Source: Frankiales bacterium (GTDB taxonomy: Bacteria; Actinomycetota; Actinomycetes; Mycobacteriales; SCTD01). Taken from it: a DNA stretch of 35,295 bases. The notes beneath the pieces were generated by a model. It was not told where the DNA came from. It was given only the letters and a program-made list of their open reading frames with translations, and searched no databases. The position numbers were made by a program, and so were the translations under genes. The stretch spans positions 1 through 35,295 of the forward strand of contig JAOPVZ010000269.1 in assembly GCA_025965935.1 (NCBI GenBank). Direction: 5' to 3'. Shown one piece after another: positions 31,761-35,295 of this stretch (positions within the stretch are counted from its first letter, which is position 1; each line of letters starts with the position of its first letter).

Positions 31761-34700
31761 GTGGCAACCCCGGACTTCCCCTCGGCCGAGCAACGCGTTC
31801 AGCGTCTGGCGGGAGTCATCGACGGCGCAGACGTCGGCGTGCTCGACACCCTCACCGACGGCCGGGTCGCGGCGGGAAACCCGGCGGCTGAGCGGATCTT
31901 CGGCGTCCCGGCGGGCAGCCTGGTCGGGCGGGACGTCCGCACGCTGTTCCCGGACTCCTGCTGGCCCGAGGTGTCGGAGGCCGGGGCCCTGGTGCACTCC
32001 GGCAAGAAGGTCGAGGTGGTGCGGACCACCGCCTTCGGTCCGGGGCAGAGCCTGGTGGACGTGACGCTGCGCCTCGCGCCGGTCCGAGACGCCGCCGGGA
32101 CGATCATCGGCGTCAGCGCGTTCATCCGCGACGTGACGGAGGAGATGCGCGCGCGCCGTGAGCTGGAGGCCAGCGAGCGCCGGTTCCGCGCGCGCTACGA
32201 CGAGTCGCCGATGCCCCAGGCGATGCTCGCCCTGGACGGGCGGATCACCAGTGCCAACGCCGCGATGCGTCAGCTGCTGGGCCGGGACGACGTGGAGGGG
32301 ATGTCGATCCTCGCGCTCCGGCACCCGCAGGACGCTGCTGCACCGCAGAAGTGGGTCAGCTGGCTGGGCAAGGACTGGTACGGCGGCAGTTCCGAAAGGG
32401 TGGTCGTGCTGTCCGACGGGACGGCGCTGCCCCTGCTCGTCCATGGCGCGGCGCTGCGGGCGGCCAACGGGTCCGTGACCGGCCTTGCCGTGTTCGCGCA
32501 GGACCTGACGAAGTTGCGCCAGGCGGAACGCGCGGCGAACCGGGCGGCCGCGGTGGCCCAGGCAATCGGCAACGCCGCCAGCGACTGGGCGGTCATCCTC
32601 GACAGCGCTGGTCGCATGTCCTACGTGTCGCCTGGTGCCCAGGCCGTGATGGGCTACGACCCGATGGTGGTCACGGGCGACAGCGCCTACGGCTACGCCC
32701 ACCCGGAGGACGTGGCCGCCGCCCGCGCCGCCGCCGAAGACGTCATCAAGGACCCGCAGGTGCGCCGCCGGTTCCTGCTGCGGCTGCGGCACGCGGACGG
32801 TCACTGGCTCTGGACCGAGCAGCTGCTGACGAACCGCCTCGACGACCCGGATATCGCCGGTGTCGTCTGCAACGTGCGTGACGTGACCGAGCGGATCGAG
32901 GCCGAGCAGGCCCTGGAGCGGTCGGAGTCCCGGTTCCGGGCGATCGCCGAGACCGCGCACGAGGGCATCTGGGCGGTCGACCCGGAGGGACGCACCCTGT
33001 ACGGCAACGCGCGACTGCTGGACATCCTCGGCGTGGACCTCGCGACGGTCTACACGACCCCCGCCCCCCGGCTGCTGGCTCCCCAGGACGAGAAGCTCAT
33101 CACCGAGCGGCTGCGGCAACGGCAGGCGGTTGGATCAGAGCGGTACGAGGTGACCTACCCGCATCCCGACGGACGGTCCCGGGTCCTGTCGCTGAGCGTG
33201 AGCCCGCTCGCCGACGATCACGGACCGGTGGGCTCGCTCGCCATGATCTCGGACGTCACGGACGAGCGCCGGGCTGACGAGGAGCTCCGTCGCCGCGCGC
33301 TGCACGACGACCTGACCGGGCTGCCCAACCGCACCCTGCTCACCGACCGGCTGGGCCAGGCACTGGTGCGCCAGGAGCGGCTCGGCTCGGGACCCGTCGC
33401 GCTGCTGTTCGCCGACCTGGACCAGTTCAAGCTCGTGAACGACAGCTGGGGCCACGACTGCGGCGACGAGCTGCTGGTCGCGGTGGCCCAGCGGCTGGCA
33501 GCGGCCGTCGGCCCCGGTGACACGGTTGCCCGCTTCGGCGGCGACGAGTTCGTGGTCCTGTCCGAGGGCACCGACGAAGCGTCAGCCAAGGAGCTCGCCG
33601 ATCACCTGCTCGCACAGCTCGCCGAGCCGTTCGAGATCTCCGGTCGACGCGCCTACCTCTCGGCGAGCATCGGCATCTCGATGGCGCCGCCGGCAGAGCC
33701 GGACGAGATGCTCCGGCACGCCGACGCGGCGATGTACAAGGCGAAGGCCTCCGGACGAGGGCGGGTGGCGGTGTTCGACCGCGCACTCGCCGGCGACGCG
33801 GCCGAGCGCCTGCAGCTCGGGAACGACCTGCGTGAGGCACTGGCAGCTGACCGGCTCGAGCTGCACTACCAGCCGATCGTGGAGCTCAGCACCGGGCGGG
33901 TGCTGGGCGTCGAGGCGCTCGCGCGGTGGCAGCACCCGGAGCGGGGCGACGTGCCGCCGTCGCGGTTCGTCGCGGTCGCTGAGTCGGTGGGGCTCGCGCC
34001 GCAGCTGGACCGCTGGGCGCTGGCTCGCGCCCGCCGTGACCTCGGCCGGATCAGGCAGCAGCTCGGTGCCGACGTCAAGGTGAACGTGAACATCTCGGCT
34101 CGGCACCTCATCGAGGGCGACCTCGAGGCAGCCGTGCGCGACGAGCTCGGCCGCGGCGGCACGCCGCCACAGGGCATCGTGCTGGAGCTCACCGAGAGCA
34201 CCGTCATGGGTGACCGTGACGACGCCTGTGCCGTGCTTCAGCGCCTCGTCGACCTCGGCGTGACAGTCGCCGTGGACGACTTCGGCACCGGCTACAGCTC
34301 GCTGAGCTACCTCAGCCGGCTGCCCGTCTCCACCCTGAAGATCGACCGCAGCTTCATCCAGGCGATGACCCGCGACGCCGACTCGCTCGCCATCGCCGCG
34401 TCCGTCGTCGACCTCGGCAAGACGCTGCGCATGACGACCGTCGCCGAGGGCGTCGAGACCAGCGAGCAGCTGGAGCTGCTGCAGACGCTCGGCTGCTCAG
34501 CCGGCCAGGGATACCTCTGGGCCCCGCCGCTCCCGCTCGAGGAGCTCGCCGCCGCGATGAAGGAGCTGCCGGTCGGCCGCTTCGACACGTCCTCCAGTGC
34601 GCAGGGGAAGCGGCCCGCCGTCCGTCAGGAGGTCGTCACCGCCGAGCACGGCCTCACCCGGCTCGCCGCGCTGCACCGCGACGGTGCCTCGCTGTCGACG

Positions 34701-34820
34701 ATCGCCGCGGCGCTCAACGCCGAGGGCTACCGGACCCCCACCGGGATGCGCTGGCACCGCGCACGGGTGGCGCGCGCCATCAGCGACCTGGCCTACCCGA
34801 ACCTCTGGCAGACCGGCTGA
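31761..34820 (+). CDS. Multi-PAS GGDEF-EAL c-di-GMP turnover protein with recombinase-like C-terminal tail
   Basis: Four PAS-like segments; HDDLTGLPNRTLL...RFGGDEFVVL; VEALARWQHP...NISARH...LELTES...VDDFGTGYSSLSYL...AEGVET. Confidence 0.95.
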   Translation: MATPDFPSAEQRVQRLAGVIDGADVGVLDTLTDGRVAAGNPAAERIFGVPAGSLVGRDVRTLFPDSCWPEVSEAGALVHSGKKVEVVRTTAFGPGQSLVDVTLRLAPVRDAAGTIIGVSAFIRDVTEEMRARRELEASERRFRARYDESPMPQAMLALDGRITSANAAMRQLLGRDDVEGMSILALRHPQDAAAPQKWVSWLGKDWYGGSSERVVVLSDGTALPLLVHGAALRAANGSVTGLAVFAQDLTKLRQAERAANRAAAVAQAIGNAASDWAVILDSAGRMSYVSPGAQAVMGYDPMVVTGDSAYGYAHPEDVAAARAAAEDVIKDPQVRRRFLLRLRHADGHWLWTEQLLTNRLDDPDIAGVVCNVRDVTERIEAEQALERSESRFRAIAETAHEGIWAVDPEGRTLYGNARLLDILGVDLATVYTTPAPRLLAPQDEKLITERLRQRQAVGSERYEVTYPHPDGRSRVLSLSVSPLADDHGPVGSLAMISDVTDERRADEELRRRALHDDLTGLPNRTLLTDRLGQALVRQERLGSGPVALLFADLDQFKLVNDSWGHDCGDELLVAVAQRLAAAVGPGDTVARFGGDEFVVLSEGTDEASAKELADHLLAQLAEPFEISGRRAYLSASIGISMAPPAEPDEMLRHADAAMYKAKASGRGRVAVFDRALAGDAAERLQLGNDLREALAADRLELHYQPIVELSTGRVLGVEALARWQHPERGDVPPSRFVAVAESVGLAPQLDRWALARARRDLGRIRQQLGADVKVNVNISARHLIEGDLEAAVRDELGRGGTPPQGIVLELTESTVMGDRDDACAVLQRLVDLGVTVAVDDFGTGYSSLSYLSRLPVSTLKIDRSFIQAMTRDADSLAIAASVVDLGKTLRMTTVAEGVETSEQLELLQTLGCSAGQGYLWAPPLPLEELAAAMKELPVGRFDTSSSAQGKRPAVRQEVVTAEHGLTRLAALHRDGASLSTIAAALNAEGYRTPTGMRWHRARVARAISDLAYPNLWQTG

Positions 34821-34870: not shown

Positions 34871-34888
34871 AACGTCTCCCAAGACGTT
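34871..34888. terminator. Short perfect hairpin downstream of the GGDEF-EAL gene
   Basis: AACGTCT-CCCA-AGACGTT; no U-tract, so terminator function is uncertain. Confidence 0.35.
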
Positions 34889-35169
34889 GTGGCGACGCTC
34901 AGCTCTCCTGACGTTGTGCGGCGACCCGCCGAGCCCCCAATGCGTTGTGGCGGCTTAGTCGCCATCCGCCAGGGACCGGACTGCTCCCTCGGCGGACAGC
35001 CGCACCTGTCTTCTCCGCAAGGGCGGCGGCGTCGCACGCCGACAGGTTGGCCGCGAAGGGCACAGGTCATGCAGTGCCGATGGGTGGCTCAACTAGTCAC
35101 CGCGGGCCGTTCTCTGGGCCTTTGCGACGTTTTGCTTGAGTTCGGAAGCCGGTCTGGCCGAAGCACGGA

Positions 35170-35250
35170 GCATCCACGAAAACGGCAAACCCGGTGCAAG
35201 TCGGGGACGCAAAGCCACGGGACCCGTCGGGTCGGCCGGGCTACCGAACA
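35170..35250 (+). ncRNA. GEMM-I (cyclic di-GMP-I) riboswitch
   Basis: CACGAAAACGGCAAACCCGGTGCAAGTCGGGGACGCAAAGCCACGGGACCCGTCGGGTCGGCCGGGCTACCGA; conserved GGCAAACC, GNRA loop (GCAA), GGGACGCAAAGCC, and terminal CCGGGCTACCGA. Confidence 0.92.
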
Positions 35251-35266
35251 GGAAGAGGAACACGTC

Positions 35267-35295
35267 ATGCGCAAGTCCAGCAAGCTCATCGGGGC
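35267..35295 (+). CDS. N-terminus of a CDS cut by the window end (MRKSSKLIG...), downstream of the riboswitch
   Basis: ATG preceded by GGAAGAGG; basic N-terminus suggests a possible signal peptide. Confidence 0.7.

Follow-up and report, generated by a model that had tools for sequence, protein, structure and literature searches.

Riboswitches of the GEMM-I class have mostly been discussed in Proteobacteria and Clostridia. Besides the parent family RF01051 of clan CL00126, the relevant RNA families include RF03167 (c-di-GMP-I-GGC), whose "GGC" subtype name presumably refers to the variant G in GCGAAGCC, and the cGAMP-selective GEMM-Ib riboswitches of Geobacter, which share the scaffold of the element described here and have an A where Vc2 has G20. 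One described type of target is the type IV pilin, in which case a c-di-GMP riboswitch precedes the gene of a surface structure. Among protein systems, the closest is the tapA-sipW-tasA operon of Bacillus subtilis, which is controlled by SinR and pairs a small exported beta protein, TasA, with the signal peptidase SipW. TasA polymerises via its N-terminal strand, and its signal peptide is cleaved off by SipW (PMC9674648). In the literature that we searched, with subscription journals mostly outside its coverage, we found no report of a secretion operon of the SipW/Sec11 type linked to a c-di-GMP riboswitch and no papers on the DUF5305 domain; the search for c-di-GMP riboswitches in Actinoplanes likewise retrieved nothing relevant.

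The window analyzed here, 35,295 nt in length, is the whole of contig C92 in the draft genome of a soil actinobacterium (3.07 Mb, 85% completeness). Across the whole window, cmscan yielded a single RNA match above cutoff, to RF03167, at positions 35175-35249 of the forward strand, with a score of 63.2 bits over the full length (gathering cutoff 59; E 7.8e-13). The comparison with RF01051 by Infernal, which the initial annotation had proposed as a check on its call of a GEMM-I riboswitch, gave a significant match of 68.1 bits (cutoff 35) spanning model positions 1-87. All the landmarks on which that call had been based are present, GGCAAACC starting at position 35184, the GNRA loop (GCAA) at 35196, GGGACGCAAAGCC at 35204 and CCGGGCTACCGA at 35236. 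Furthermore, in an alignment of 24 rows, comprising the window and 23 relatives, compensatory changes in P2/P3 are found, at 10 of the 17 consensus pairs. The element is a genuine full-length GEMM-I (c-di-GMP-I) riboswitch aptamer, unexceptional within its well-known class; of the 24 genomes of the window's family analyzed, 20 carry such sites, 42 in total.

The binding site was inspected with regard to the ligand. Position 35185, equivalent to the ligand-contacting G20 of Vc2, is a G, as had been judged by eye, and is invariant in all 24 rows of the alignment. The equivalents of A46/A47 are A-A (35211-35212), the canonical c-di-GMP-I state in the cmscan alignment rather than the G of the RF03167 consensus, and that of C92 is a C (35244); all these bases lie on the forward strand, and their Vc2 numbering is what we take to be the convention for this riboswitch class. 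The fact that the Rfam model with the lowest E-value is RF03167 could point to a variant cyclic dinucleotide as the ligand, either cGAMP or an unknown compound recognised by the "GGC" subtype. However, at the diagnostic site, where the RF03167 consensus reads GCGAAGCC, the window has GCAAAGCC, the first A of which is invariant across the 24 rows, so that the G distinguishing the variant is replaced by an A in the window and in every aligned relative. The "GGC" label therefore stems from the score, the diagnostic base (A35211) being a mismatch, and we rejected the filing of the aptamer under RF03167. The cGAMP-selective GEMM-Ib riboswitches differ from the window at the position-20 equivalent, where the G favours c-di-GMP over cGAMP, in agreement with the initial annotation. 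Recognition of a variant ligand thus appears highly improbable, and the canonical bases of the site read as those of an aptamer with c-di-GMP, rather than cGAMP, as the expected ligand.

The genes located downstream of the 42 family sites encode type IV pilins, various exported proteins and hydrolases, and, at eight sites including the window, the products of an operon that we denote SAFT-peptidase. Its first gene encodes a small exported protein of ~125-135 aa, the hydrophobic N-terminus of which terminates in a (G)SAFT motif; the name SAFT was coined in this analysis after this conserved motif. In relatives with sufficient sequence, the next gene encodes a signal peptidase of ~500 aa. Within the order but outside the window's family, the riboswitch also precedes this operon, or at least the first of its genes, at seven further sites. 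When the peptidase alignment was used to scan named genomes, 80 loci were identified in Actinomycetota and Chloroflexota, and these were searched with a covariance model derived from the aptamers of the window and its relatives. In 19 of the 80 loci, a strong riboswitch is found 400-700 nt ahead of the peptidase; these include six Actinoplanes species, Arthrobacter sp. Soil762, Nakamurella endophytica, two Acidimicrobiales, a metagenome-assembled genome (MAG) labelled Mycobacterium and MAGs of Frankiales/Pseudonocardiales. Rfam models agreed in four of 11 such loci scanned independently. Collectively, the combination of riboswitch, SAFT protein and peptidase recurs across Actinomycetota. Elsewhere, as in Blastococcus and Sinomonas, the operon lacks the riboswitch, and a genome of the window's own genus (locus L111) has the operon with no detectable riboswitch. 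At two loci, degraded aptamers were observed ahead of the same operon (L185:2030-2118, 34.3 bits; L191:5321-5408, 28.6 bits), with the 3' half kept and GGCAAACC lost, suggesting loss of riboswitch control in some lineages. Loci with a degraded riboswitch, or with none, thus show that the operon can do without this control.

Other GEMM-I sites of the family have different targets. Thirteen of the 42 lie behind a pilC-like gene and ahead of one for a type IV pilin (L070, L076, L079, L083, L084, L089, L093, L095-L097, L099, L100, and L102), with a leader of ~70-90 nt from aptamer to pilin start. Five sites (L072, L074, L078, L091, and L094) belong to a long-P3 sub-class of ~88 nt, starting with GGCACCCCC, which precedes a distinct gene set; four of these genes are mutually related. 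Another target type is represented by L106 (G017:C222), where the small exported protein behind the riboswitch is a different one, bearing the SipW-like signal AYAYWTAGGSG, and a second such protein follows.

In the window itself, the Shine-Dalgarno sequence AGGAAGAGG (35250-35258, forward strand) begins at the base next to the 3' end of the aptamer, so that the two do abut, as had been described, and an ATG follows at 35267, leaving a gap of 17 nt between aptamer and start codon. The contig ends 46 nt past the aptamer and only ten codons of the regulated gene, MRKSSKLIGA (35267-35295, forward strand), are visible, which bears out the earlier statement that the downstream gene is unseen. The proposed extension of the contig past 35295 found no continuation, the last 100 bases matching nowhere else in the 85%-complete genome, and neither a SAFT protein nor its peptidase was found in that assembly; the gene was instead assigned via relatives. 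On a profile of SAFT N-termini, the ten residues score 27.2, as compared to 16.3 for the top one of 1,105 unrelated N-termini, and among the known SAFT members one alone scores better. Two near matches are MRKSTKFLAA from a genome of the same order (G100) and MRGTTKLIGA from a genome of the same genus (G008). In addition, at 14 other sites of the order, a SAFT-type gene starts 14-25 nt behind the same riboswitch. With only ten residues visible, and exported proteins being frequent among the GEMM-I targets in the window's family, the gene might encode another exported protein with a similar start. This is very unlikely, however, considering that the profile score, the gene spacing and the aptamer flank all fit the SAFT class and that the nearest unrelated N-terminus lies 11 bits below that of the window. 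Judging from these first residues and from synteny, the truncated gene in all likelihood encodes a small exported SAFT protein belonging to an operon with a SipW/Sec11-type peptidase.

Analysis of the relatives provides a description of both products. The peptidase matches TIGR02228, the archaeal-type signal peptidase I (1.1e-17), as well as SEC11A (1.4e-9; SEC11A/C by family), and S35-M36 and H73-R74 are invariant in the alignment. The second gene of the operon thus has the catalytic Ser and the His in place of Lys that characterize S26B (Sec11/SipW-type) peptidases, and in seven of nine members the C-terminal half matches DUF5305. By these matches, the protein is predicted to be a Sec11/SipW-type signal peptidase with a Ser-His pair, joined to a DUF5305 domain. 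In an alignment of 34 sequences of the SAFT protein, two cysteines are invariant, and no family was found for it in Pfam or NCBIfam. Its AlphaFold model contains a fairly confident all-beta domain behind a disordered N-terminal segment (mean pLDDT ~72 overall; 73-91 per ten-residue block of the domain). A Foldseek search with two AlphaFold models produced no PDB match at E<=0.001, the top hits being weak Ig-like sandwiches. We also considered SAFT as a homolog of TasA and discarded this possibility after the profile comparison, the PDB sequence search and Foldseek searches with the two AlphaFold models had produced no significant match. Taking into account the company that it keeps, we infer a role of SAFT in the cell surface or biofilm matrix.

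With regard to the mode of control, binding of c-di-GMP would be expected to stabilise the aptamer together with P1, the closing helix, whose end lies beside the Shine-Dalgarno sequence; this stabilisation would alter the access of ribosomes to the first gene and, in turn, set how much of the exported protein is made. A search for terminator-like hairpins found none. Given the absence of such a hairpin, the position of the aptamer directly before the Shine-Dalgarno sequence and the distance of 17 nt to the ATG, control of ribosome access is the simplest reading, and translational control, as suggested in the initial annotation, is plausible. A conserved alternative pairing that sequesters the Shine-Dalgarno sequence was sought over 15 leaders and not found, complementarity being no greater than that in shuffled sequences (mean z -0.02). 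The window does contain a GUUCGG (35140) complementary to CCGAAC (35244), which is used in the minimum-energy fold; as a conserved sequestering arm, this pairing was rejected in view of the complementarity values across the 15 leaders (z -1.5 for the window). Predictions of Shine-Dalgarno accessibility with and without the imposed aptamer gave no consistent direction, ON or OFF. The missing sequestering pairing, together with the fact that the gene runs past the contig end, placing any later elements out of view, would also fit an aptamer that acts on transcription instead of ribosome access, for example, via Rho or a terminator inside the coding sequence. We consider this unlikely in view of the short distance of 17 nt from aptamer to ATG, the lack of a terminator-like hairpin, and the close spacing of the Shine-Dalgarno sequence behind the aptamer in the SAFT-class relatives. 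The reading that we regard as very probable is that the riboswitch is located in the 5' leader of an operon encoding SAFT and a Sec11/SipW-type peptidase-DUF5305 protein and that it controls the output of the exported protein via ribosome access.

Upstream of the aptamer lies a gene on the forward strand (31761-34820) for a protein of 1019 aa with four PAS domains, GGDEF, EAL and a recombinase-like helix-turn-helix (HTH), as identified by Pfam (EAL, 6.6e-76; GGDEF, 9.1e-47). It had been noted as ending about 350 nt away; it does end 355 nt ahead of the aptamer, and its GGDEF and EAL catalytic motifs are both intact. This C-terminal HTH, located in the window at 34600-34820 and scoring 20.3 bits against PF07508, just under the cutoff, is shared with EAL proteins in L071, L078, L094, L106, and L107; it is possibly a DNA-binding tail on c-di-GMP enzymes. 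The region between this gene and the riboswitch contains three imperfect 16-nt direct repeats (CTCCCAAGACGTTGTG) at 34876-34949, spaced by 27 and 31.

The initial annotation had proposed that the enzyme and the riboswitch form a local circuit. In such a feedback, the PAS-GGDEF-EAL protein would sense a cue and shift the local c-di-GMP pool, which the adjacent riboswitch would mainly read to control the exported protein. Besides the intact motifs of the window protein, this proposal draws on the genomic neighborhoods. According to gene calls made with our own codon-usage script, a GGDEF/EAL gene is the immediate 5' neighbor of five of the eight SAFT-class sites versus two of the 34 other GEMM-I sites of the family (Fisher p 0.0012, or 0.0045 when the window is excluded); the genomes counted are related and thus do not represent independent samples. 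As a conservative background, ~2-3% of genes would be expected to be such neighbors; this rate was used because the density of GGDEF/EAL genes in random regions (2.5 per Mb) was dropped as a control for being biased to genomes poor in these genes. The neighbors differ in orientation and architecture between the loci, and in one Pseudonocardiales genus and one family member an EAL gene is found downstream of the peptidase. Against the proposal, no GGDEF/EAL neighbor accompanies the operon in Actinoplanes, Arthrobacter, and Nakamurella. Moreover, at least 37 regions of the window's 3-Mb genome, distributed over many contigs, match the GGDEF-EAL protein, suggesting that its source is an unusually c-di-GMP-rich actinobacterium, and global c-di-GMP is therefore probably set by many enzymes. 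The association between GGDEF/EAL genes and the riboswitch is thus supported for the clade, and the upstream protein is a possible, if unproven, source of the signal. Considering the lack of the neighbor in other lineages and the numerous genomic matches, the private circuit is plausible and unproven, and we put it forward only tentatively.

The value of the finding resides in the recurrent, unnamed target operon. One GEMM-I class repeatedly guards the same operon for an exported protein and its peptidase across Actinomycetota, including the culturable Actinoplanes, Arthrobacter, and Nakamurella, which suggests that c-di-GMP governs a component of the cell surface or biofilm through this operon. 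If so, this would name a direct c-di-GMP output in actinobacteria and provide the first functional handle on the SAFT protein family and on DUF5305. A more far-reaching scenario, which we regard as possible but doubtful, is that c-di-GMP directly controls, through the GEMM-I riboswitch, an unrecognised actinobacterial surface-fibre or matrix system. In that scenario, a disulfide-bonded beta protein would be cut by its own Sec11/SipW-type peptidase-DUF5305 and polymerise through the freed N-terminal strand; in this clade, with its own c-di-GMP enzyme alongside, the locus would represent a self-contained sense-and-attach cassette.

Compared with the known systems, the window shares with RF01051 and clan CL00126 the sequence, the structure, the binding-site bases and the place before a gene for an exported protein, with no essential difference; the riboswitch class is known, whereas the operon under its control appears to be undescribed in the literature and libraries searched. 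As in the systems controlling type IV pilins, with which 13 of the 42 family sites are associated, the riboswitch stands before the gene of a putative surface structure, although here it targets a small exported protein that is unrelated to pilins and has a peptidase of its own. The SAFT operon also recalls tapA-sipW-tasA in combining a small exported beta protein with a SipW/Sec11-type peptidase, and an Ala-Phe follows the hydrophobic segment of SAFT, as at the start of mature TasA. However, no match in sequence family or fold was found between the two proteins, the SAFT operon has no tapA and its peptidase carries a DUF5305 domain, and a c-di-GMP riboswitch takes the place of SinR. The resemblance to tapA-sipW-tasA is best viewed as an analogy rather than as demonstrated homology.
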